A stretch of DNA of 64,000 nucleotides, taken from NCBI RefSeq assembly GCF_003351785.1, contig NZ_CP031230.1, positions 2,079,001 to 2,143,000 of the forward strand, read 5' to 3'. Both the position numbers and the translations under genes were made by a program. Source of the DNA: Sporosarcina sp. PTS2304. GTDB lineage: Bacteria > Bacillota > Bacilli > Bacillales_A > Planococcaceae. Positions 5,543 to 39,190 of the stretch are shown here, in pieces. The notes under the pieces were generated by a model. That model made no database searches and was not told where the DNA came from. It saw only the letters and a list, made by a program, of their open reading frames with translations. The number at the start of each line of letters is the position of its first letter. Position 1 is the first letter of the stretch.

Positions 5543-6196
5543 TTGGATAAGAAGACAATTCAGAAAAGCAGAATGTGGAAGTATTTCATAGAAGCTACAA
5601 CAGAAATTATTGAGCAAGAAGGTTCCAAAGCAGTTACTATTCGTAAAGTAGCTGATAGGGCCGGCTATAATAGCGCGACCATTTACAATTATTTTGATGA
5701 GTTTTCACATTTACTCTTTTTCGCATCCATGCGATTATTGGAAGAATATATTACTGAAGTAACGAGACGAATGAATGGAGTAGACCAAGCGTTAGAGCAA
5801 TATATCATCGCTTGGGAGTGCTTCTGTGAATACTCTTTCCAGAAGCCAGATATTTTTCACTCTGTCTTCATTCGGGACCTAGGGGAAAATCCTGATCATT
5901 TATTAGAAAAGTATTACGAGTTTTATCCATCAGATCTTGTAGACGTTCCTGAAGAAATTCAAATGAGCTTACTTGAGCAAAACGTAGTAAAACGCGGTCA
6001 CCCTCTTTTGAAAAAAGCGGTGGAGCAAGGCAGTCTAGACAGTGAAAAAATAAATTCGCTTAACGAAGTAACTATTTTGATATGGCAAGGTATGCTCACA
6101 AGCTTCTTGAACAACCGGATTGATATGACAGCAGATGAGGCCGCGAATCGGACGATCACTTACGTAAAAGAAATCGTTGAACGGACAAGGTCTTAA
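5543..6196 (+). CDS. TetR/AcrR-family transcriptional regulator
   Basis: A 217-residue protein with an N-terminal TetR helix-turn-helix at residues ~25-55 (VTIRKVADRAGYNSATIYNYF, with the usual S/A-T-IYNYF recognition end) followed by an all-helical ligand-binding domain. The TTG start at 5543 has AAGGGAG 9 nt upstream. It is divergent from the BCCT-hydrolase operon, which it probably controls; the palindrome at 5415-5430 is a candidate operator. Such repressors are usually released by a small molecule related to the target pathway; the ligand is unknown. Confidence 0.85.
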   Translation: MDKKTIQKSRMWKYFIEATTEIIEQEGSKAVTIRKVADRAGYNSATIYNYFDEFSHLLFFASMRLLEEYITEVTRRMNGVDQALEQYIIAWECFCEYSFQKPDIFHSVFIRDLGENPDHLLEKYYEFYPSDLVDVPEEIQMSLLEQNVVKRGHPLLKKAVEQGSLDSEKINSLNEVTILIWQGMLTSFLNNRIDMTADEAANRTITYVKEIVERTRS

Positions 6197-25674: not shown

Positions 25675-26964
25675 TTATATTGCAACAGAGGAATCATTAT
25701 TAGGTAAAGCACCACCATTAATCACAAACGCACTCTCTATTGATTGTGCCAAATCCATTATTTGCTTGCTTGTTTTTCCAGTATAGTGATACATGAGGTA
25801 ACGAATATCTACTACAATTCCTTGAACTCGTTCATATTTATGCCCATTAGTTTTCCAATCACCAGTTGCTTCACCTATGTTTGCATAGAACTCATTCGAA
25901 CCGAATAAATTATTATTTACATTGTACGGCATTATGAAAGCATTATATACCGGTACGTCATTACCATAATTTTTCTTGTACTTATCTCCAGTATATATGT
26001 ACTCTCCATATGTAATCTGCTTGTTAATTGATGAAGATTCAGGTAAATCATTTGGGTTACCAGTAACACCAAAACGATAATATTTGGCATCAAGAACATA
26101 GATATTCCCATTGTGCAGCATTATAGTATCTGGTTCCAAGGCAGCATTTGTTTTCTTCTTACCAGTATTAAGTTTCCACTCAGTTCTTGGAAAATAATTT
26201 TTCTTTTCTTTAATTCCAAATACCCGGTCAACTAGCTTTTCCCACACATACTCAAAGCGATCAGTGCCAAAGTAAAATTGCTTTTCCTTAGTTTTCTCAT
26301 CCATATACTCAATCATAGCTATCATTGCAGAGAACAATCTTTTATCTTTATCATTATGAGTACTTGCCAGTTTATCACGCAATACTGTTAAAAACATTCT
26401 ATCGTTTCTTTCAATATTAGATTTCTCTGGCATGTCTGGTGTAAACAACCATCCTAATTTAGAAAAACTTTCATAAACACAATATTTATGAATCTTTGTT
26501 ATTAAATTGCTGTCATTAGGTGCGGAAACTCTCACAGTAAAGTTAGTATAAATAGGAGAACCATTAGACTGTATTAACGGACGCTGTCTTTTTAATGTTT
26601 GTCCCCAATGTACCTTTCCTCTATCACTCGTTCTATAAACTGCCTTTTTTTCGGTGTAATAAGATTTTAGCTCCATATAAGAATTTATTATTTCCATATA
26701 AGCGTTAATAGGAAAATCAACAAATTGAGGTGCCTCAAACTTCTGCATAGCAAGTACTTTGTCATCGCGATTTGTAAATTCAGCGAGAACTGAAATAAGA
26801 TGAAGAATATCTTGTCGCAAGTCTTGATCATTATCAGGCAATTGGTAACCAATAGGGAAGTAAACCATTGCATTATCCGTATCCGCCCTTACACCGACAA
26901 AGCGGTCACCATCCTCATTTTTATTAACATGACAACGCCTAAGTAATTCAGATTCTATTCCCAT
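25675..26964 (-). CDS. LlaJI-type restriction endonuclease subunit (McrC-like nuclease)
   Basis: A 429-residue protein whose C-terminal half carries a PD-(D/E)xK nuclease core: EPDTIMLHNGNIYVLDAKYY gives the aspartate and the D-x-K pair in classical spacing (around residues 285-305). The N-terminal half would contact the NTPase partner, as McrC does with McrB. It follows the McrB-like gene by 16 bp, as the last gene of the four-gene operon. The arrangement matches R2 of the lactococcal LlaJI system and the RE_LlaJI family. An IS21 copy sits about 85 bp beyond its stop without harming it. Confidence 0.8.
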   Translation of the reverse strand: MGIESELLRRCHVNKNEDGDRFVGVRADTDNAMVYFPIGYQLPDNDQDLRQDILHLISVLAEFTNRDDKVLAMQKFEAPQFVDFPINAYMEIINSYMELKSYYTEKKAVYRTSDRGKVHWGQTLKRQRPLIQSNGSPIYTNFTVRVSAPNDSNLITKIHKYCVYESFSKLGWLFTPDMPEKSNIERNDRMFLTVLRDKLASTHNDKDKRLFSAMIAMIEYMDEKTKEKQFYFGTDRFEYVWEKLVDRVFGIKEKKNYFPRTEWKLNTGKKKTNAALEPDTIMLHNGNIYVLDAKYYRFGVTGNPNDLPESSSINKQITYGEYIYTGDKYKKNYGNDVPVYNAFIMPYNVNNNLFGSNEFYANIGEATGDWKTNGHKYERVQGIVVDIRYLMYHYTGKTSKQIMDLAQSIESAFVINGGALPNNDSSVAI

Positions 26965-26980
26965 ATTATGTCACCGCCAT

Positions 26981-28723
26981 TTATATTTCTTCATCATTTA
27001 TTTTTTCAGAAATAAATAAGTTGAAAATCTCTTCTTTGAAGACAGCAAATCTTTCGTTACCATCCGAGGTTTTAAATTTTTTCACAATGTCTTCTAAACT
27101 GATATATCGGCTTGTCTCGAAAATATCTTCTCTAGTGAACTTAAATGCATCATCCCACAAATACTTTAAAACCTTGTCGGCAAAAAGACTATTATTTCTT
27201 TCAGCTCTTAATCTCTCTTTTTCAGGTAACTCATAGTTTTTCTCGTCAGCATTATACTGCAAATCACTTTTGCGAACAAAATAAGCACCTAAGCGTTTAT
27301 CTTCGGAAGATGTCACACGAACATTCTTTCTAAGAATAATAGTATTAATTGCCTCATTAAACTGTTTCCACGATACCTCAGTATCCAAAATTTTATGATT
27401 TGAAAACTCCAGATCGACCTTACTCATATCATTCTCTATCATACGCATATTCCATCTTCTTTGAAATGCTGTGTCAAGAGTAAACACATTCTGGTCTGAA
27501 GTATTCATCGTGCCTATGATTGACATATTTGATGGAATTCTTACTTTAAGGTTATTAACTCCGTAAACAACTCTTGCAATATCGGAATTAGAAATACCGT
27601 ACTCACTTGTTCCATTCTCATCCCTATCAAGCAATTGAAATACTTCACCGAAGATTGCAGGTGCATTTCCTCTATTAATTTCTTCAATAATAAGGAAATA
27701 CTCTACACCAGGGTTTTCATAGGAGTTTTTTAGTAAACGAGTAAAAGGGCCTTCAGTAAACTCATAACTAACAATACCTTCAGATACATTAGGCAATATT
27801 TGTCCGACAAAATCTGAATAAGTATAGTCAGGATGAAAAACAAGCCTCTCTATCCTATTTTCATCATCACAATATTCATGCTCGATTGTATAGCTTTTCC
27901 CTGCACCAGGAACTCCATAAAGTAAAATATTTGAACCGCCTGTTACTCTTTCGGTGTATTCCAATCTAGATTCACTAACCCTTAACTCTGTGATATCATC
28001 AACTACATACATATCCATATCAATATTATATATCTTTAAATTTGATAGCCTCTTTCTATACCTATCTAAAACAATTGGAGCTATCATAATTTTTCTTGCA
28101 CCGCCTACAGTGTCACCTTCTGCAAGAAACCCCCATCTTACAAGTATCATAATTGGTTTGGCATCAGTATATTTTTGTGCTGCCTCTGGAATATTTAGTC
28201 CTCCACTCTGACGAGCTTGACTAATTTCAGCAATTGTATCTGTAAAATTTCCACCTTTATCTTCTAAACTCCACAAGATATATGCAAATTCTTTGTATGT
28301 TAAATAATCCAGCTCTAATGCAGCACGAATAAATACAGATGGTGGCTCCACGTCAGAGTCACTCTCTGACACTCCGCAATTTTCCCTTCCAAACTTAACT
28401 GTTTCGAAGGAACACATCAATTCTTCTAGAATTGCGTCTTGATTATTACTTTGGACTGCCAAGTAAAATCCCTTACCGGATTCCGTTATTTTACGATGAG
28501 ATTGACGATTATTAAAATCTTTCCAAATAGTAAAACCAAAATACGATGTAATTTGTGCCTTTTTTGTATATGAAGAAGAGTATTGGGTATCACCAATCAT
28601 CGCTTTTAACTTCTGCTTATATACGTCATTCGGAAGCCAATCGTTAGCCTCATAATATATCTGCAATACAGATTCAATCTCATTTAATAGCGCACTATTT
28701 TTTGGCATCACAATCTTACCCAC
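26981..28723 (-). CDS. McrB-like AAA+ NTPase, restriction subunit (LlaJI R1 type)
   Basis: A 580-residue protein. The N-terminal ~250 residues are probably the DNA-recognition part. The AAA+ domain has Walker A LLYGVPGAGKSYTIEH (residue ~270), Walker B LIIEEINRGNAPAIFGEV, and GTMNTSDQNVFTLDTAFQRRW, the McrB-specific sensor and arginine-finger region. McrB proteins are GTP-driven translocases that activate a McrC-type nuclease. In LlaJI-like systems the pair restricts unmethylated rather than methylated DNA. The GTG start at 28723 has GGAGG 6 nt upstream; it follows the second methyltransferase gene by 11 bp. Confidence 0.85.
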   Translation of the reverse strand: MGKIVMPKNSALLNEIESVLQIYYEANDWLPNDVYKQKLKAMIGDTQYSSSYTKKAQITSYFGFTIWKDFNNRQSHRKITESGKGFYLAVQSNNQDAILEELMCSFETVKFGRENCGVSESDSDVEPPSVFIRAALELDYLTYKEFAYILWSLEDKGGNFTDTIAEISQARQSGGLNIPEAAQKYTDAKPIMILVRWGFLAEGDTVGGARKIMIAPIVLDRYRKRLSNLKIYNIDMDMYVVDDITELRVSESRLEYTERVTGGSNILLYGVPGAGKSYTIEHEYCDDENRIERLVFHPDYTYSDFVGQILPNVSEGIVSYEFTEGPFTRLLKNSYENPGVEYFLIIEEINRGNAPAIFGEVFQLLDRDENGTSEYGISNSDIARVVYGVNNLKVRIPSNMSIIGTMNTSDQNVFTLDTAFQRRWNMRMIENDMSKVDLEFSNHKILDTEVSWKQFNEAINTIILRKNVRVTSSEDKRLGAYFVRKSDLQYNADEKNYELPEKERLRAERNNSLFADKVLKYLWDDAFKFTREDIFETSRYISLEDIVKKFKTSDGNERFAVFKEEIFNLFISEKINDEEI

Positions 28724-28734
28724 AATTTTCCTCC

Positions 28735-29874
28735 TTAAAGCTGTTGTAACAAAGCTTTCATAATTTTCTCTATTAACCTTGAGGGAATCCCCTCACCGAA
28801 AGATTTTCTTATAAATGTTTCGCTTGCCCATTCTGGTATTGACCAATCGAGCGGTAACGACATAACGATCAAAAGTTCATATATAGTCAAAACTCTTGCA
28901 TCAGAGTATAAATTTTCCCCAGCAATAGATTGATACATTCTTCCAGGATGTACACATGCTAACGAAGACATAACACCATTATTTTGTATTATAGTTCGGC
29001 ACGGCATATCCCATTTTAATCTTCGGTAATGATTATGATGTGCTTTTACGGGAGTACCATCTGCTTTTTGCGGATAATATTTTTCATTATATATAGCAGA
29101 TTTCCCTGTTGGTGTGTGCATCATCCATTCCACCTGTTTCCAAGAATGTTTCGGCGGATAATGCCATTTTGATATTGCAAGTCCAGCTTGGCGTTTTATT
29201 TCGTAATCAGGAAATTTCTCCAAAGTAAACTCGAGTCCCTCTCGAAGTAAGGGATCAAGAGAAGGTAAATCGCCTATTGCTTGGCGAAGAGTAATTTCAG
29301 GCTCTTTCTCAGGAAATTCCCATTTGTAATTTAAATCTTTCCTAACCAACAGGAAAATATTTCTTTCCCTAAGCTGAGGAACACCATAATCTTTTGCCAT
29401 TACAAGAGTTTCATTATTAAAAGTATAATCATTTTCTAATTCTTTCTTGATGTAATCAGGAATCAGATAAATTTCATCACCAAATTTAATCTTAGTAGTT
29501 AATTGCTTAGGTACATTTTCAAGCAATACAAATTCTGGCTTAACCTTTTTTATAACATCTATAGCATAGTAGATAAGTTGGTTTCTCGGGTCGAATTCGA
29601 GGCGCAATCCCGCCTCGCTCATACCTTGACATGGAGGTGTTGCTATTATAAAATCCACTTTTTCCTTGATCGCTTCTTTGACAATCTTCTCTCGAACATT
29701 ATCATCAGTTATGTCCCCGCAAATCATCTCTGTTTCTTTATATACTTCTTGATAAAATCTAGCTCTTTCTTCGTCAATCTCATTTGCTATTTTAATGTCA
29801 ATGCCGAGTTCTCCCATGTAGGCTTCGGCAACCCCAATGTTAGCAAACAGAGAAAGACCATTTAATTTACCCAT
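28735..29874 (-). CDS. DNA (cytosine-5) methyltransferase, second of a pair
   Basis: A 379-residue C5-methyltransferase. Motif I is GLSLFANIGVAEAYM (SAM binding, with N-I-G instead of the usual FxGxG), motif IV is ATPPCQGMS with the catalytic cysteine, motif VI is LLENVP, motif VIII is PQLRERNIFL, and motif X is FGEGIPS. The variable region before motif IX is the target-recognition domain. The ATG at 29874 is preferred (AGGAG 9 nt upstream), with 29880 possible. Its pairing with a related methyltransferase suggests each one modifies one strand of an asymmetric site. Confidence 0.9.
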   Translation of the reverse strand: MGKLNGLSLFANIGVAEAYMGELGIDIKIANEIDEERARFYQEVYKETEMICGDITDDNVREKIVKEAIKEKVDFIIATPPCQGMSEAGLRLEFDPRNQLIYYAIDVIKKVKPEFVLLENVPKQLTTKIKFGDEIYLIPDYIKKELENDYTFNNETLVMAKDYGVPQLRERNIFLLVRKDLNYKWEFPEKEPEITLRQAIGDLPSLDPLLREGLEFTLEKFPDYEIKRQAGLAISKWHYPPKHSWKQVEWMMHTPTGKSAIYNEKYYPQKADGTPVKAHHNHYRRLKWDMPCRTIIQNNGVMSSLACVHPGRMYQSIAGENLYSDARVLTIYELLIVMSLPLDWSIPEWASETFIRKSFGEGIPSRLIEKIMKALLQQL

Positions 29875-29886
29875 TTTCATAATCTC

Positions 29887-31290
29887 CTAGTTTATATTTT
29901 CAAAAACTTTTTTAACAAAAAGAGGAGGAATACCCTCACCGATAACCCTTCTCAAAAAAGCCTCTGATGTATTTTCAGGAACTGACCAATCTTCGGGTAA
30001 ACTCATAATCGTCATAAGTTCATATAAGGTTAATGTTCTTGCATCAGAATATATATTTTCCCCAGCTTTAGTTTCGTATTCTAACCTGCCTGGGTGTACA
30101 TTATTCTGTGAAGAAATTTTCCGATTATCCATCGTGACAGTATAAGCTGCTGTGTTCCAATTCTGTCTTTTATAAGTGTTACGAAATCCTTTCACTGCAC
30201 TACCATCTTCTTTTATAGGATAATAAACTAAATTGTCGAAAGCTGTGCACCCTGTTGGTGTATGTTGCATTGCAACTACTTGTCGTTTTATATGATGTGG
30301 CGGAGTATGCCAATTTGATATTTTTTCAGCAACCTCTTTTCGCTCATAAAAGTGTGGGAACATCTCTAATAATTCGTCTTCGGATACATCTTTAACAAAA
30401 GGATCCATAGTAGGTAAATGACCGATGGCATCATACATCGTGACAATTTTACTATCTTTTTCCGGAAGTATCCATTCTTTATTTTCATTTCCTATTCGGG
30501 TCATTAGAATAATTGCTCGTTCTCTGGTCTGTGGAATAGAATAGTCTTTTGTATCGATAATATACATATTAATCTTATAATTAGCTTCCAACTCGTTTTT
30601 TAGATAATTTGAAATAAGTGTTTTTTTTCCACCTATCTCGATAGACGTACTCAAAAACAACGGGACATTTTCTAAAAAAACATATCTTGGTTTTATCTTC
30701 TTAATTACATCAACAACTGGACATATTAATTTATTTCGTTCATCGTTTTCTACTTGTCGCCCTACTGTACTCATCCCCTGGCATGGTGGTGTTGCCATGA
30801 CAATATCCACATTATTATTAAGACTCTCTTCAACAATTTCATCGAAAACTTTTTGCTGTGTAATATCTCCACAAATCATATGAGTATCAGGGTAGATGTT
30901 CGAATATAATTTTGCTCTCCTTTCAACAAGCTCATTAGCAACAACAACATCTACTCCTATCGACTCAAAATAAGCCTCTGCGACCCCTATATTAGAAAAT
31001 AAAGATAAAACCTTTCCGCCATTTTTCTGTTCTTCATTTAGCGTAGGTTCTTTTGAGGTTTTTTCAATATATTCAAAATATAGCTTTACAGCTTTTTTTA
31101 TCTGCGATCGTACAGAACAAGATAACTGTTGATAAGTTTCTTCTTGCTCTAATCTAAATTGGTAAACTTTATCGTTAAACCATGGCAACATTTTATCAGC
31201 TCTTTTTACTCGCGAGACAGTATTACTGATAGTAGCCTTCGAATAGTTTGTATGGGCAGTTAACCAATCCTTAAAAACTTCTAAATTCAT
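29887..31290 (-). CDS. DNA (cytosine-5) methyltransferase with N-terminal extension, first of a pair
   Basis: A 467-residue protein. Residues ~1-100 form a helical extension (TNYSKATISNTVSRVKRADK ... SQIKKAVKLYFEYIEK) resembling the core-binding domain of tyrosine recombinases. The methyltransferase follows: VLSLFSNIGVAEAYF (motif I, same N-I-G variant as its partner), ATPPCQGMS (motif IV, catalytic Cys), FLENVP (VI), QTRERAIIL (VIII), GEGIPP (X). The ATG at 31290 has AGAGGTGAG at ideal spacing; the frame extends to 31341 but would begin inside the promoter. It is the first gene of the R-M operon, under the promoter at 31332-31360. Confidence 0.9.
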   Translation of the reverse strand: MNLEVFKDWLTAHTNYSKATISNTVSRVKRADKMLPWFNDKVYQFRLEQEETYQQLSCSVRSQIKKAVKLYFEYIEKTSKEPTLNEEQKNGGKVLSLFSNIGVAEAYFESIGVDVVVANELVERRAKLYSNIYPDTHMICGDITQQKVFDEIVEESLNNNVDIVMATPPCQGMSTVGRQVENDERNKLICPVVDVIKKIKPRYVFLENVPLFLSTSIEIGGKKTLISNYLKNELEANYKINMYIIDTKDYSIPQTRERAIILMTRIGNENKEWILPEKDSKIVTMYDAIGHLPTMDPFVKDVSEDELLEMFPHFYERKEVAEKISNWHTPPHHIKRQVVAMQHTPTGCTAFDNLVYYPIKEDGSAVKGFRNTYKRQNWNTAAYTVTMDNRKISSQNNVHPGRLEYETKAGENIYSDARTLTLYELMTIMSLPEDWSVPENTSEAFLRRVIGEGIPPLFVKKVFENIN

Positions 31291-31331: not shown

Positions 31332-31360
31332 ATTGTAACACGTCAAAATAACGGCGTCAA
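31332..31360 (-). promoter_or_regulatory. Promoter of the LlaJI-like R-M operon
   Basis: On the minus strand, TTGACG (31360-31355) is followed after exactly 17 bp by TACAAT (31337-31332), a near-consensus sigma-A promoter. Transcription would begin near 31325, about 35 nt before the methyltransferase start codon. The -35 box overlaps a GCGTC/GACGC site in the inverted repeat at 31346-31379. Confidence 0.8.
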
Positions 31361-31379
31361 TTACTTGACGCCGTTATTT
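31346..31379. promoter_or_regulatory. Inverted repeat with two GACGC sites in the R-M promoter
   Basis: AAATAACGGCGTCAA (31346-31360) and TTGACGCCGTTATTT (31365-31379) are a perfect 15-bp inverted repeat around TTAC. The arms carry GCGTC (31354-31358) and GACGC (31367-31371), two head-to-head copies of the LlaJI recognition sequence. The arm nearer the gene contains the -35 hexamer, so binding or methylation here should affect transcription. Confidence 0.85.
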
Positions 31380-31727: not shown

Positions 31728-32630
31728 TTAAAAAGGAAGATTTTCATTCTCTGTTTTATTTTCTTGAGCCCTGCTAGATATATATTTTACGTAAGCTAGT
31801 AGTTTGTCTATAAAATAAATTGCTTCATCATAACTTATTTCACTAATATTGAAGTTACCATGTCGGATATCTTTATATCTATTATGGAACATGTTCCATA
31901 ATATGATGCCATCTTTTACTATAAATGACTGACCCCATTTTTCTGGATTTTCTCTCATCAATCTATCTGCGTTGTCGATATCAATTGTTCCTGTTAAATG
32001 TGTCAATAAAGATTCCATAGCAGATAAACAATCTCGAATAGCATCTTTTCTTGCTCTTAGTTCCCCAGCTCTAACAAGTTGTTTCTGCGCCTGTCTAATG
32101 TGATCAGCAGTCTGCCTACTAATTTGTTCTGTACTGATAATTACATCAGTTATATTCGTAGCTAAACAAATGTTGGAATTCACGGTAACCCATGGTTTAT
32201 TTGAATCGCCAGTTAATTTGTAGCCAAAGTCATGATCCTCAAATATCTCGTTCAATTCATTTAAAAAAATTTCATCCATATTACTTAACTCCAAAACAGC
32301 ATCCATGAACTTATGGAAATGTATATCTTCAAATTCTTCAAATAAATTTATAAAATCTCGAGTTAAATAATCATATCCCCAATTATTTGTGTTTCTACTG
32401 TTTGTATGTAATGAAACTATGTCACACATATTCTTTAGCGTACCATCTACATTTAAACCCGGCTTTGCTTTTCGTATCGCGTACAGCCGCCTAGGTAACG
32501 TTTGTGAAATAGCCCTTAAAAGTTCTTTGGAAACAGTTGACATCAAATACTCTTCGTTTGAATAGGATTTATAATCTGGAAATAATTCTTTAAATTTTAC
32601 AATCAAAATAATCACCATTTTCTCAATCAA
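31728..32630 (-). CDS. HEPN-like/AbiJ-type protein, candidate abortive-infection effector
   Basis: A 300-residue protein. The C-terminal half is helical, with RDCLSAMESLLTHLTG and then HNRYKDIRHGN, which fits the R-x(4-6)-H motif of HEPN ribonucleases (R-YKDIR-H). The N-terminal half (SYSNEEYLMSTVSKELLRAI, YDYLTRDFINLFEE) resembles the N-terminal domains found in Abi-type proteins. It overlaps the end of the preceding gene by 8 bp. The start is uncertain: the codon at 32630 has no clear RBS, and a TTG a few codons downstream has GGTGAT upstream. Phage-triggered RNA cleavage is an inference from the motif. Confidence 0.6.
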   Translation of the reverse strand: MIEKMVIILIVKFKELFPDYKSYSNEEYLMSTVSKELLRAISQTLPRRLYAIRKAKPGLNVDGTLKNMCDIVSLHTNSRNTNNWGYDYLTRDFINLFEEFEDIHFHKFMDAVLELSNMDEIFLNELNEIFEDHDFGYKLTGDSNKPWVTVNSNICLATNITDVIISTEQISRQTADHIRQAQKQLVRAGELRARKDAIRDCLSAMESLLTHLTGTIDIDNADRLMRENPEKWGQSFIVKDGIILWNMFHNRYKDIRHGNFNISEISYDEAIYFIDKLLAYVKYISSRAQENKTENENLPF

Positions 32631-33129
32631 TTCTTATTACTTTATCAACAAACTCTTCGAATTTATCAGGATTATAATTTGGTTCATGCAGGGATAAGAA
32701 TATTATTTTTTTGCTCTTTTGACGTAAAGTAAGTTGTTTTAGCATTTCTATCTCATCTATATTTTCAGTAACACTTTGAATGGGCCAGATAATCATAAAA
32801 TCAAACTCAGACTTATCATACTTATAAGTAAGTCCTTTTGTCGTTAAGTTATTAAAGTAAATTGTCAAATTTGAAAGCCGCATAGGTTCGCCATAAACCT
32901 TGGGGACTTTTACATCATACAATTCCGCCCAATCAAAAAAGTTCTTCATTCCATCTGCCGTTGTATGTAATAAATGAATTACCCCCTTTGAATTACCCTT
33001 TCTATTAAGTGCTCTTAAAATTAATCTGTGCTTTTCCTTTTCTGCAACTCCTCTTAATAAGAGTGTTTTTTCATTTGGATTATCTATAAAACTAACAATC
33101 CGTTCATACGATTTCTTCATATCCGTCAT
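32623..33129 (-). CDS. Uncharacterised partner of the HEPN-like gene
   Basis: A 168-residue soluble alpha/beta protein. Alternating strands and helices (TLLLRGVAEKEKHRLIL, GVIHLLHTTADGMKNFFDWA, FDFMIIWPIQS, SKKIIFLSLHEP) suggest a Rossmann- or P-loop-like core, but no Walker A or catalytic signature is present. It precedes and overlaps the HEPN-like gene by 8 bp, so the two are coupled. It could be the antitoxin, sensor or regulator of that protein. I do not recognise its family. Confidence 0.6.
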   Translation of the reverse strand: MTDMKKSYERIVSFIDNPNEKTLLLRGVAEKEKHRLILRALNRKGNSKGVIHLLHTTADGMKNFFDWAELYDVKVPKVYGEPMRLSNLTIYFNNLTTKGLTYKYDKSEFDFMIIWPIQSVTENIDEIEMLKQLTLRQKSKKIIFLSLHEPNYNPDKFEEFVDKVIRID

Positions 33130-33347: not shown

Positions 33348-33536
33348 ATGTCACGCGAAAAATTAACAATTGTCCCCGTCACACTCCAACCTGTTCATAA
33401 AGATGGATTCCCCACCGCTACTACGACCACCTTTGGTAGGTGTACAATCAAAACAAGCTCCGCTGAAATTTCCTTTTATAACGGACTGGAAGAGCGCATC
33501 ATCCAAACGGTATTGAAGGAGTTGAAGCATCTATGA
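33348..33536 (+). CDS. tnpA: IS66 accessory protein TnpA
   Basis: A 62-residue protein starting at the ATG at 33348 with AGGAGGTG upstream. The pattern CTIKTSSAEISFYNGLEERIIQTVLKEL is typical of the IS66 first ORF, which ends in a short DNA-binding-like helix. The stop overlaps the tnpB start by 4 bp. Confidence 0.75.
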   Translation: MSREKLTIVPVTLQPVHKDGFPTATTTTFGRCTIKTSSAEISFYNGLEERIIQTVLKELKHL

Positions 33537-33886
33537 AGCAGGATTACACAAGTGTTGAAAACATCTACATCGTTTGTGGAAAGACTGATATGCGCAAAGG
33601 AATGGACGGGCTTGCCACGCTGATACAAGACTCATTTGAACTGGATCCCTACAGCGATTCTATTTTTCTATTCGCTGGGAGAAGTAAGGATCGGTATAAA
33701 TGCTTGTATTTTGATGGAGATGGCTTCGCCATGTTATATAAACGATTAGATAGCGGAAAATTACAATGGCCAAGAAACGAACGAGAAGTTCGGAACCTGT
33801 CTCAACAGGAGCTTCGCTGGCTATTAGAGGGATTATCTATTCAACAGCCAAAAGCTATTCGTTCTTCACCAAAAGGAATTTTTTAA
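33533..33886 (+). CDS. tnpB: IS66 accessory protein TnpB
   Basis: A 117-residue IS66 Orf2 protein with the family hallmarks IYIVCGKTDMRKGMDGL, IFLFAGRSKDRYKCLYFDGDGFAMLYKRLDSG and LSQQELRWLLEGLSI. It is required for transposition of IS66-type elements, though its mechanism is unclear. The gene is intact and full length. Confidence 0.92.
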   Translation: MKQDYTSVENIYIVCGKTDMRKGMDGLATLIQDSFELDPYSDSIFLFAGRSKDRYKCLYFDGDGFAMLYKRLDSGKLQWPRNEREVRNLSQQELRWLLEGLSIQQPKAIRSSPKGIF

Positions 33887-33959
33887 TTTTCATCTTTCCT
33901 TCTCGATTCGAACTCGCTATACTAATAAAAATGGAATCGAACGGAAAGTGGTGAATGAG

Positions 33960-35533
33960 ATGTCAAAGGCTTCTACTTCAAACAAGAAACAATTAGAGAA
34001 AGTCATTCAACTGTTAGAAGAGCAATTGGCTCATTCCAATCAGCAGAACGAAAAGCAGTCTAAACAAATCGAACTGCTCACGCAACAGGTGCAACATTTA
34101 ACCAAGATGTTATTCGGCTCTAAAACAGAGAAGTCAAAGTACTAGACACCCGGTGGTCAAGGATCGTTGTTTGACGATGATTCTTCTTTTACAGAACCTG
34201 AGCACACAGAAGAACAAAGCCAACAGACCATTTCTTATACTGTTGTTCGAAAAAAGTCGAAGAAAAAGAGAAACGATTCTTTGCGTGATGATGTGGCAGT
34301 AGAGGTGATCCATCATCATCCTGAAAATACATTATGTGAGTGTTGCCAACATCAAATGATGGAAATCGGAAGTAAAGTAGCTCGTGAAGAAGCGAAATCT
34401 ATTCCAGCCAGCATGGTGAAAGTGCAACATGTAGAGCATACATATGAGTGCAAGGAATGTAAACGTGACGTATCCCGCCCTACGCAAATGAAACGAGGAA
34501 AAACCCCCTATTCGGCAATCCAACGGAGTCTTGCGGGTCCAAGTGTACTCGCTAAAGTGATATATGATAAATTCGTGCAATATCTACCCCTCTACCGTCA
34601 GGTAAAGGAATGGGTTCGTCATGGCTTGAAGACGAATGATAAGAATCTATCGAATTGGGTCATTCGTGTGGCAGAAGATTGGCTGTCACCAGTTTATAAT
34701 CGATTGAAAGAATGGATGATGATAAAAAACGTTCTACATGTCGATGAAACATATGCTCAGATTATCCTTCGTTCCGATGGAAAGTCAGGTCAAGCCAACA
34801 CCTATAATTGGGTGTACCGTACGGTGCCGAGTCAGGGATCGATCATCACACTGTTTCAAAGTTCGTTATCTCGTAGTCGATCCGAGTTAGAAAGTTTTAC
34901 TCAAGATTATAAGGGAACCATTGTGTGTGATGGATATTCTGCTTATAAAAACCTGTCAGGCGTAACATTTGCCAACTGCTGGGCGCATGTTCGACGTTAT
35001 TGGTTGAAAGCGGATAGCAAAAATGGCCGAATTGGCGTAGACTTTTGCGATCAACTATACCGGTTGGAGCGGAAGTTTAAACACTTCTCCCCGAGTAAAC
35101 GACGGAAAATGCGGAGAAAATACTCAAAGCCGATTGTCGATGAATTCTTTCAGTGGATAGATGCATCGCCCTTCTTTGGTAAAAGTGCCATCGCGACAGC
35201 AGCCGAGTATACACTGAAAAAAGCGGATGGTTTACGAGCATTCCTGTCTGACGGCCGAATCGAAATCGACAACAATCCTGCTGAAAATGCCATCCGTCCT
35301 AATGTGATCGGTCGAAAAACTGGATGCATTCCGTTAGCGAAGCCGGTGCAAGGGCAAACGCTATTTGTTTAAGTCTCGCAGAGACGGCAAAGAGTAATGG
35401 TATCGACTTCTATGAATATCTAAAGAAATTGCTTACAGATCTGCCAAATCTGGATATCCATCAACATCCTGAAATTTTAGATCAGTATTTACCTTGGTCA
35501 AAGAAAATCCAATCCACGTGTAGCACACCATAA
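33960..35533 (+). pseudogene. tnpC: IS66 transposase TnpC, disrupted by a stop and a frameshift
   Basis: The N-terminal coiled coil and leucine-rich segment (VIQLLEEQLAHSNQQ) run to a TAG at 34143-34145. The same frame resumes at once with TPGGQGSLFDD, so a CAG-to-TAG change is likely. The zinc-finger-like CECCQHQM and CKECKRD region, the DDE core (VLHVDETYAQI, VCDGYSAYKN, IDNNPAENAIRP) follow. Near 35315 a single A appears to be missing from a run of A, shifting the frame; the other frame continues WMHSVSEAGARANAICLSLAETA to 35533. The element cannot make its own transposase. Confidence 0.9.
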
Positions 35534-35719: not shown

Positions 35720-37747
35720 TTATAGATTTAATTCATTAAATGCTCTATCTTGGATTATAATTCCTTTGCAACCTTCTTCAATCTTCTTAAATATTAACTC
35801 TCGAGTATCAGTCTCTTTAATTGTTATTCCTACAATCACTTGAGTTTTAGCCGCCAAATTTATTAAGCAATCTAAGAAAGCTTCCATATCCCCTACTACT
35901 ATACTGTGCTGGCCAGGTTCGTCGAAAATTAGAATACCTGGATGATTTCCGTTCAATTCATTAGAAGTCTGTACTAGTGCTATTGTAAATGCCCAAATCC
36001 TTCTAATATGATCACTCGCTGATGAATCAAATTTCAAATCAAAGTTCTCTATTGTAGGCATATAAGTATCTTTCGATATCATTACTTTATTAATATCTGA
36101 AGAGCTTCTATAGCCGAATACTTTCAGGTTTGAAACAAAGTTATCTCTTAACGCATTAATTTTTCTTTCGTCCAAACTAGTAAATTTGTTTTTCGGCAAT
36201 TGATTTAAATCAGCAAGATATTGTTTCCATTCATCTGATAACTGCTTAAATTCCGCTTGGGTCTCCTGTATATCTTTTTTTACTTTTTCTAATTCTTCTA
36301 TTGCTATATCTAACTCTACTTTCTTATAGATAGTACTTTCTGAAACAGAACCATCAATGGCAAAAATATCATTTCTAGTAACCCTTGATAGTTGGTACAA
36401 TTTTGATACTGTATTTTCTAAAATACTTATTTTATCATCAGTATTTTTTATATTTGTTTTTTTCTGTTCTATTGCAAACTCAAATAGTTTTTCCTGAGAC
36501 TTTAAATGTTTAATGTTATCCTCGACACTCATTACATCTGCTATATTTTGACTCACTAGCAATGTATCAGATATTGGTTGATTGCAAGTCGGACAAATAT
36601 CTTTAAATGAATTAAAGCCCTCTTTTGATCCCAAGTTCCGTAGTTTTTTAGCATCCTGGTTGTTAATAACGTCTGTTTGAATTAACTTTAAACTATTTGA
36701 TAATCTATCCAAGCTTACTCTTTCACTATTTGCGCTTATTTTTAATTGTTTAATTTTTTCTTCATATTCTATAATACCTTCTTCTATTTTTCTTAGTTCC
36801 TTTTTTAATTCATGGAAATTATCAACATCTTTAGGCTTAAAATTAATTAGGTCTTGGAGCTCATTTCTTTTTAACTCAATATATTCATCAAGTTCTAAAT
36901 CCCTTTCATCATCTTGATAAATAACCTTAACGGAGTGATTAGGATCTTCTAAAATCTCAACGTTCCCATTTACCCCCTTAAGCACTAAGTCCATATTCCC
37001 CAAGCTTTTAACTGTTTCCTGAAAAATTTGCTTCCACTTTTCAACAATACTATTTTCCTTTATACTTAACCTGTGCCTTAGCTTTTCATTTTTTAGAGTA
37101 TCCATATCTAATAGGTATTCAATTACTCGTTTCTTGGGTTCCCGAATTCCAAAATGCGGCATACCGGAAAAGAGATCAGCCCAACCTCTCTTTTGTTCTA
37201 TTAACATACTAGAAAAAATTAGTTGCAAGTACAACTTTCTTTCCTTATCATCTGTACTTGGAACACTGGGTAAATTTAATCCTAAAAATGATTCCAAAAA
37301 TGTAAAGAAACCTTTATTACTTGTAGCTGAATTTTGCGAGTGGACATACATATCTTCACTTTTAATTTCTTTATCATGGATTCGATCCATCTTTGAATAA
37401 AAGACAGTCATTAAATTAGAATTCCTATTTTTCATTTTAGCTGCCCTTAAAATAGTAATATCCTTGCTACCATTAGATATCTCAAGAAATACTTTTGATT
37501 CTAAAACATTCATCTCTTCTTCGCATTCAACCTTGGTTTTAAAAGCTGAACTCAATACATTATGTCCCTTTCCACCGATGATTTCTTCTAAACCTAAACC
37601 ATAATATATACTTGAAATGATTGAGCTTTTTCCAGAAGTGTTCTGTTCACTACAAATAATATTCATTTTTTGATCAAATGTATCATCAAATCCAATTATA
37701 TTATTCTCCGTAATTATTTCAACTCTTACTCTCCCTATACGTATCAA
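35720..37747 (-). CDS. Rad50/SMC-like ABC ATPase with zinc hook (DUF3732/ABC-3C type)
   Basis: A 675-residue ABC ATPase with split head and central coiled coil. Walker A lies in ICSEQNTSGKSSIISS (residue ~40). The coiled coil (about 230-520) is broken by a Rad50-style CxxC hook, DICPTCNQPISD. The C-terminal head has the Walker B ILIFDEPGQHSIV. This resembles the ATPase of ABC-three-component (ABC-3C) conflict systems, annotated as DUF3732. It is the last gene of a four-gene operon, 5 bp after its neighbour. It probably senses or remodels foreign DNA and gates the nuclease-like partner. Confidence 0.8.
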   Translation of the reverse strand: MIRIGRVRVEIITENNIIGFDDTFDQKMNIICSEQNTSGKSSIISSIYYGLGLEEIIGGKGHNVLSSAFKTKVECEEEMNVLESKVFLEISNGSKDITILRAAKMKNRNSNLMTVFYSKMDRIHDKEIKSEDMYVHSQNSATSNKGFFTFLESFLGLNLPSVPSTDDKERKLYLQLIFSSMLIEQKRGWADLFSGMPHFGIREPKKRVIEYLLDMDTLKNEKLRHRLSIKENSIVEKWKQIFQETVKSLGNMDLVLKGVNGNVEILEDPNHSVKVIYQDDERDLELDEYIELKRNELQDLINFKPKDVDNFHELKKELRKIEEGIIEYEEKIKQLKISANSERVSLDRLSNSLKLIQTDVINNQDAKKLRNLGSKEGFNSFKDICPTCNQPISDTLLVSQNIADVMSVEDNIKHLKSQEKLFEFAIEQKKTNIKNTDDKISILENTVSKLYQLSRVTRNDIFAIDGSVSESTIYKKVELDIAIEELEKVKKDIQETQAEFKQLSDEWKQYLADLNQLPKNKFTSLDERKINALRDNFVSNLKVFGYRSSSDINKVMISKDTYMPTIENFDLKFDSSASDHIRRIWAFTIALVQTSNELNGNHPGILIFDEPGQHSIVVGDMEAFLDCLINLAAKTQVIVGITIKETDTRELIFKKIEEGCKGIIIQDRAFNELNL

Positions 37748-37752
37748 CTATT

Positions 37753-38226
37753 TCACCCCAATAATGTACTTTTTAACTTATCTATCAAATTTTCAGTAAG
37801 CTTATTTGACAATTTGTTTAAAAATTCCTTTTCTTTCACTAATAGACTTTCATCACACATAATTTTTCCGAGAAAACTTTTTCCTGAAACTGTTAGCCGA
37901 AACAATCCATTCCCTTGTTGAAACATTATTTTGTCAGCTAACATGAAATCAACCGTTTTATTGATTGTGGGATCATACCTCAATACTAAGTATTGATTAC
38001 TTTCTCCATTTACATATTTCAACAGGGTATCCTTTTCCTTTTCAGAATACATTGATACTATAATTAGATGTAGTTTTGATAGTGAACAGCCACTTCTACC
38101 ACATGACAACCCAAAAATTAAACAAGTAAGTGCTATTTTATAGCTCAACCTGTAATGATAGGGTACTGCATCAGGCTTCGAGTCGAAAACGATATAATCT
38201 GTTAAGATGAAATCTTCATTACCCAT
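37753..38226 (-). CDS. Candidate ABC-3C middle component
   Basis: A 157-residue protein. The first half is helical with a hydrophobic stretch (YKIALTCLIFGLSCGRSGCSLSK). The second resembles a winged helix (MLADKIMFQQGNGLFRLTVSGKSFLGKIM). In ABC-3C systems a small winged-helix middle component links the ATPase to the effector, and its size and position here fit. It overlaps the upstream effector gene by 8 bp and is followed 5 bp later by the ATPase gene. The family call rests on context more than on motifs. Confidence 0.6.
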   Translation of the reverse strand: MGNEDFILTDYIVFDSKPDAVPYHYRLSYKIALTCLIFGLSCGRSGCSLSKLHLIIVSMYSEKEKDTLLKYVNGESNQYLVLRYDPTINKTVDFMLADKIMFQQGNGLFRLTVSGKSFLGKIMCDESLLVKEKEFLNKLSNKLTENLIDKLKSTLLG

Positions 38227-39190
38227 TTTTTATTTCTCCTTTAAATTCCATTGAACAATCAGCAAGCCATCCTGCAATCAAATCCATTTTTAGATTCATT
38301 ATGGAGGCACTATTTATATGTTTAAATTCTGCTCTAAGTTTCTCTTCAAAATCATTGGATATTTCATTGAACAGTTCGGCATTCATTGATCTATCTCTAT
38401 TCAACAGTGTTCTAGATGCAACATGCCTTTTATATTGACTTGCTAAATCCAAAATGTCTTTTCTGATATCAGGAAAACCTTCCCCTAACCGTTCCATAAT
38501 TTCAATTCCTGAAATATATGCTGACATATACATATCTAATAATAAATTCAAATTATCATTATCAGTTTTAAAATCTGGGTTTATCGCTATAAGTTTTCTT
38601 TTAACATTTTCCACCTTTTCGTTTGGACACTTGGACCAATCAGCAGATGCATCTTGCAAAATTGCAAAACTTAGTTTTGTATCTATTAAATTACTTCTTA
38701 AGATTCTTGTAAATTCAATTCTAAAATCCTCTGCTGTTTTAATTATTATTACAAAATCATCGGAAATATAATCATAGAATTCTGGCTTACCTTCCCTAGC
38801 CTTTCTTACAAGTTCAGTTTTTTTTGTGATATGCTGAATAATTCTCTTATCTTTATATTCTGGAATAACAAAATGCCATTCCTTAATGGGAGGGAGTCCT
38901 AAACTCTTTAACACTATAGCATTTTTTTCATCTATAAATTTTGCTATATCATCGGTAACCTTAGTTCGTTGATGTGTATATAAATCATCATTCGAATAAT
39001 TCATATCTTCTGGGCAATAACATTGAATTACGACTCCAGAACGTGTAAATCCTTCAATACCCCCATCACCCTTGTGTTTCGCTGGAACCTCTTGGAAGTG
39101 CTCATTTTGATGCCTCATTTTATAACAAGATATACATAAAGTTTCCCAGCTATCCCCATCCAATGAAGAATCTAAAAAATCAAGAATCAT
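38219..39190 (-). CDS. Nuclease-like effector of the ABC-3C-type operon
   Basis: A 323-residue protein. The N-terminal ~100 residues look like a restriction-endonuclease fold: GDGGIEGFTRSGVVIQCYCPE has the strand-turn-strand layout of PD-(D/E)xK enzymes, with D/E residues before and Q-C-Y in place of the usual (D/E)-x-K. The rest is helical, ending in a C-terminal domain that would contact the middle component. The unusual QCY leaves catalysis open. It overlaps the small upstream gene by 4 bp and the middle component by 8 bp, so all four genes are coupled. Confidence 0.6.
   Translation of the reverse strand: MILDFLDSSLDGDSWETLCISCYKMRHQNEHFQEVPAKHKGDGGIEGFTRSGVVIQCYCPEDMNYSNDDLYTHQRTKVTDDIAKFIDEKNAIVLKSLGLPPIKEWHFVIPEYKDKRIIQHITKKTELVRKAREGKPEFYDYISDDFVIIIKTAEDFRIEFTRILRSNLIDTKLSFAILQDASADWSKCPNEKVENVKRKLIAINPDFKTDNDNLNLLLDMYMSAYISGIEIMERLGEGFPDIRKDILDLASQYKRHVASRTLLNRDRSMNAELFNEISNDFEEKLRAEFKHINSASIMNLKMDLIAGWLADCSMEFKGEIKNG

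Follow-up and report, generated by a model that had tools for sequence, protein, structure and literature searches.

On the minus strand of the window – the whole 64-kb stretch of DNA analysed here – lie four consecutive genes: M1 (29887..31290; 467 aa; PF00145, 1.4e-48) and M2 (28735..29880; 381 aa; PF00145), both C5 cytosine methyltransferases; R1 (26981..28723; 580 aa; AAA_5, PADLOC REase_II), an McrB-like AAA subunit with an N-terminal specificity half; and R2 (25675..26964; 429 aa; PF09563, 1e-37), an RE_LlaJI nuclease subunit. A single operon in which a pair of C5 methyltransferase genes precedes those for an McrB-like AAA subunit and the RE_LlaJI nuclease is the gene layout of the LlaJI family, and the promoter, with two recognition sites over its −35 box and an M1 that carries an N-terminal regulator domain, follows the family layout too. 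Judged by its sequence, the operon is a LlaJI-type restriction–modification (R-M) system. LlaJI recognises GACGC/GCGTC (PMC1459862), and the conserved methyltransferases, together with the operator described below, point to the same target for the window enzymes, in agreement with the original prediction, which had picked out GACGC as the LlaJI site. Translation of M1 starts at the ATG at 31290, after AGAGGTGAGAGA; a longer GTG frame, reaching 31341, would open at the promoter and is unlikely to mark the true start.

The LlaJI system of Lactococcus lactis plasmid pNP40 shares with the window the four genes and their order, the RE_LlaJI nuclease, the N-terminal M1 domain and a promoter of the form GGCGTCAA-N4-TTGACGCC with an embedded −35 box. 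It differs in that the window operon is chromosomal and belongs to a different Bacillota lineage, with 65% (M1), 75% (M2), 52% (R1) and 55% (R2) identity between the counterparts, and with R1 42% identical in its specificity half and 61% in its motor half; the operator arms measure 15 nt in the window and 24 nt in pNP40. As a separate observation, the specificity part of such systems (M1, M2 and the N-terminal half of R1) and the motor–nuclease part (the C-terminal half of R1, and R2) appear to have been exchanged independently: the loci concerned are L001, L068, L069, L071 and L067, several of them with 64–66% identity in the N-terminal half of R1, ~35% in its C-terminal half and 21–23% in R2, and L067 has the opposite pattern to the loci with a conserved R1 N-terminal half. 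Upstream of the R-M promoter are two minus-strand ORFs of 300 and 168 aa (31728–33129), of which the 300-aa one matches the PADLOC candidate PDC-S32 (5e-9), and transposase-like ORFs (33533–35372) separate the R-M region from a three-gene Lamassu-like operon (35720–39190; PADLOC LmuB, LmuC, LmuA), which makes this a defence island.

The operon is preceded by a minus-strand promoter, TTGACG–17 nt–TACAAT (−10 box at 31332..31337), that has 10 of 12 consensus matches and a TG before the −10, much as the original prediction of a near-perfect sigma-A promoter had it. Its −35 box (31360–31355) is embedded in a perfect inverted repeat (31346..31379) whose 15-nt arms, 31346–31360 and 31365–31379, are 100% complementary and flank a 4-nt centre, so that the minus strand reads AAATAACGGCGTCAA-GTAA-TTGACGCCGTTATTT. 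Each arm contains GACGC, at 31354–31358 on the minus strand and 31367–31371 on the plus strand, in line with the original prediction. The −35 hexamer makes up the first six bases of the proximal half-site, TTGACGCC (31353..31360, minus strand); the distal half-site (31365..31372) reads GGCGTCAA on the minus strand and thus TTGACGCC on the plus strand. The predicted transcription start lies downstream of the repeat, and the promoter spacer, also downstream of the operator, holds a third TTGACG (31342–31347, minus strand), without the following C, that was not seen in the other operons.

The length of the repeat alone is not decisive, because seven perfect inverted repeats whose arms reach 15 nt or more were counted in the window (~0.001 expected at random), among which the operator repeat was the one inspected; the significance of the operator comes instead from its conservation across operons. 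GACGC itself is neither enriched nor depleted in the 64-kb window (61 found, 67 expected), and target avoidance was rejected on this count.

That conservation is strict. Nine divergent operons have an M1 with the canonical N-terminal domain – the window, L001, L034, L035 and L086 (Bacillota genomes, by protein search), L002 (pNP40), and the viral contigs L018, L019 and L031, which came first from a search with the operator pattern and were recovered again by protein search – and in all nine GGCGTCAA-N4-TTGACGCC is invariant, with the −35 TTGACG embedded in it and a −10 box of at least 5/6 matches after 17–18 nt. Pairwise identity averages 1.00 over the half-sites, compared with 0.36–0.37 over the flanks. 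The comparison of orthologous promoters that had been proposed as a check therefore came out as anticipated – the GACGC pair kept in 9/9 operons, the −35 always embedded, the flanks ~36% identical – and the repeat is missing from none of these domain-bearing relatives. What needs amending is the conserved unit: GACGC is retained, but the half-site is 8 bp long (TTGACGCC), compared with the 5-bp target, and tracks both the methyltransferase and the regulator domain. The distal half-site, moreover, retains GCGTCAA though only the proximal one acts as a −35 box, which argues for symmetrical protein binding. Three of the nine operators have longer perfect arms – 15 nt in the window (31346–31379), 24 nt in L002 (~5890–5945) and 16 nt in L034 (~1385–1425) – of a different sequence in each, and these perhaps arose by template-switch repair of an imperfect palindrome.

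In the host genome the exact operator occurs once, and no other copy with fewer than two mismatches was found there; the operator is thus private to the R-M operon, and the idea of a wider regulon was rejected. Among 28 viral contigs with the exact operator pattern, three have it directly upstream of M1, and chance could account for the remaining 25, the collection being large.

The N-terminal domain of M1 (~aa 1–82, 31045..31290 on the minus strand) comprises ~80 residues and is predicted to form a helical bundle, with a mean pLDDT of 84.6 and values above 90 in most of the core. The structures that resemble it most belong to tyrosine recombinases – XerA, IntI, the Brujita integrase and the lambda integrase core-binding domain – at Foldseek TM scores up to 0.65 (about 0.64 by query length) and probabilities up to 0.97, with E-values of about 1 that are not significant. 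A second model, of the homologue in L114 (pLDDT 92.7), has a single match with TM above 0.5, the Xer structure 4a8e (TM 0.61). On these models, a core-binding-like fold of the tyrosine-recombinase kind is likely but not proven; the likeness to XerA, IntI and phage integrases is no more than suggestive, and M1 carries no recombinase catalytic domain. No model in Pfam, NCBIfam or PADLOC covers the domain, a PDB sequence search with it returned nothing convincing, and no HTH family matched M1 or this part of it, which places the operon outside the HTH-fused and Xre-type C-protein class. A literature search that took in few subscription journals returned no paper linking R-M control to core-binding domains or tyrosine recombinases.

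LlaJI-type operons whose M1 has no such domain provide a natural comparison. Their M1 methyltransferase domains are still 58–63% identical, and the GACGC pair is absent from their promoters; the operator is present in 9/9 operons with the domain and 0/4 without it (p about 0.0014, hand calculation), leaving out L077, whose contig begins at the regulator gene and has no upstream DNA. Other regulators are found here: a ribbon–helix–helix domain fused to M1 in place of the core-binding-like one in L050 (2900–3165; PF01402 above cut-off), a separate ribbon–helix–helix-like gene in L051 (2765–3002), and separate Xre-type genes in L052 (2707–2955) and L077 (1–198); in L070 no regulator was seen. In L050 and L051, 8-bp direct repeats resembling TTGGCGTT adjoin the −35 box; L083, which also matched this pattern, proved unrelated. 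Three further operons with a divergent N-terminal domain (L047–L049) have one half-site only, within the −35. The original claim that sequence alone predicts the specificity thus holds for the domain-bearing sub-type and fails beyond it, because operons with other regulators lack the pair despite their related methyltransferase domains.

The domain is not confined to LlaJI-type systems. All significant matches in a search of 72,556 plasmids lie in cytosine methyltransferases, of either LlaJI or HindV type, the latter on small enterobacterial plasmids and with the domain at the C-terminus. Against the HindV-type domains the LlaJI-domain profile gave 1e-12 and 2e-13, compared with 0.06 for the best shuffled decoy. 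HindV-type enzymes group with BsaHI, whose recognition sequence is GRCGYC and whose methylated base is the central C (PMC2413257), and their promoters in L088, L089 and L090 have the form GACGTC[A/T]A-N4-TTGACGTC with TTGACG-17-TATCAT or TAGTAT. Searching viral contigs with this operator pattern alone gave 15 matches, two of them beside domain-bearing systems. The domain also occurs as a separate gene: in the HindV-type system of L114 it has 91 aa and overlaps the methyltransferase stop, and in L111 it has 100 aa and runs into the beginning of the gene for a cytosine methyltransferase of a third kind, adjoining a restriction enzyme recognised by PADLOC, with a weak −10 (CATTCT) in the promoter. 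Finally, protein search yielded L124, a HindV-type enzyme with a C-terminal domain and the promoter GGCGTCAA-TAA-TTGACGTC, TTGACG-17-TATACT, whose 3-bp operator centre is the sole departure from the 4-bp spacing. Among HindV-type enzymes without the domain, L091 alone offers a clean negative promoter, as the start matched in L092 is downstream of the true one and L093 appears to carry a frameshift.

In TTGACGYC, the form common to the 28 half-sites of 14 systems, variation is limited to position 2 (T 26, A 2) and position 7 (C or T). The base at position 7 is C in 18/18 LlaJI-type half-sites and T in 11/12 others, L124 included; counted by locus and for the proximal half-site only, this becomes 9 C versus 6 T (p = 0.0002), a p-value that shared ancestry within each type weakens, although the flanks are saturated. 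The position follows the target of the enzyme, since GACGC requires C and GRCGYC permits C or T. Read from these alignments, the half-site looks like an overlap between the site of a portable repressor domain and the target of the methyltransferase, as an operator coupled to methylation would require.

How the window operator would work can be proposed largely by analogy with published work on LlaJI. One report describes the LlaJI operon as controlled through recognition sites in its own promoter (PMC11779793), a LlaJI promoter probe used elsewhere contains two LlaJI sites (PMC1459862), and M1.LlaJI is listed in another paper (PMC3978073) among the methyltransferases that repress their own gene. 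That LlaJI is regulated at sites in its own promoter, which the original prediction also mentions, and that M1 is the repressor are both already published, and the window operator is a further case. We regard it as highly probable that the repeat is the autorepression operator of this LlaJI-type operon, with M1 binding, repression and coupling to methylation all carried over from LlaJI. M1, probably dimeric, would use its core-binding-like N-terminal domain to bind the two head-to-head TTGACGCC half-sites on either side of the 4-bp centre, and would in doing so cover the −35 box and lower transcription of M1-M2-R1-R2. The predicted M1/M2 target, GACGC/GCGTC, lies within each half-site, so the CpG that closes the −35 hexamer would be expected to become methylated once enough methyltransferase is present. 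Output of the operon could in this way be tied to methylation status, strong on unmodified DNA after entry and throttled when modification is complete. The suggestion that an N-terminal extension of M1 helps binding gains support, at the sequence level, from the co-occurrence of domain and operator and from the reuse of the domain elsewhere.

The simplest account would have M1 repress at the −35 box, with the effect adjusted by methylation of the CpG that this hexamer contains. Methylation alone might be the switch, altering RNA polymerase binding at the −35 CpG while M1 acts only as an enzyme and its N-terminal domain is no repressor, and the overlap of GACGC with the −35 in all nine operons is what this would predict; it is improbable, however, given that LlaJI-type operons without the domain also lack the GACGC pair, that conservation is just as full across the 8 bp of the distal half-site, which lies outside the −35, and that M1.LlaJI is listed as a repressor (PMC3978073). 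Somewhat less improbable, though still unlikely, is a pure repressor operator, in which TTGACGYC is simply the site read by the domain and nothing in the regulation depends on the overlap with the methylation target. The same domain does use TTGACG.C half-sites with both GACGC-type and GRCGYC-type enzymes, but the invariable C at position 7 in the LlaJI-type half-sites, where T prevails elsewhere, looks as if the target were selected as well, and LlaJI has been described as regulated via its recognition sites (PMC11779793). A role for the palindrome as a transcription terminator, or as an RNA hairpin unrelated to M1 regulation, can scarcely be credited: the repeat is perfect and hairpin-forming, and long arms (15, 16 and 24 nt) of differing sequence recur in 3/9 operons, but the terminator scan did not report one here, orthologues have arms of mostly 8–11 nt and no T runs, and the repeat sits upstream of the predicted transcription start. 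The lack of a T run and the variable arm length in orthologues led us to reject the terminator reading.

The repression proposed for M1 has relatives. In SsoII/Ecl18kI, EcoRII, MspI and ScrFI, too, a methyltransferase with an N-terminal regulatory part represses its own gene (PMC3978073, PMC3695355). M.SsoII differs in having an HTH domain, in place of the core-binding-like one predicted for M1, and in regulating through a site other than the one it methylates, whereas the window operator contains the predicted methylation target. HindV/BsaHI-type systems (GRCGYC) of enterobacterial plasmids resemble the window in their homologous regulator domain, operator arrangement and embedded −35, but have the domain at the C-terminus or as a separate gene, the half-site TTGACGTC, and an unrelated nuclease, HindVP, in divergent orientation.

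Taken beyond the window, we consider it probable that the N-terminal domain of M1 represents a family of R-M controllers, core-binding-like in fold and so far missed by annotation, which moves between unrelated cytosine-methyltransferase systems as an N- or C-terminal fusion or a separate gene and acts at a TTGACGYC repeat over the −35 with the target inside the half-site, so that each enzyme would modify its own operator. In a literature search that took in few subscription journals, no paper was found to describe such a portable, unannotated controller domain, with an operator of its own, alongside methyltransferases of three kinds.

In a restriction operon methylation has to precede cutting, and how this order is timed is known for only a few regulator types. 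The window operon adds a well-conserved further example of LlaJI-type control, and the compact domain–operator module behind it, found with at least three methyltransferase families, makes it possible to predict, from the sequence of systems that lack annotation, both the operator and the probable methylation target. Its fused, split and different-target-base versions are natural pairs for probing how methylation and repression are coupled.
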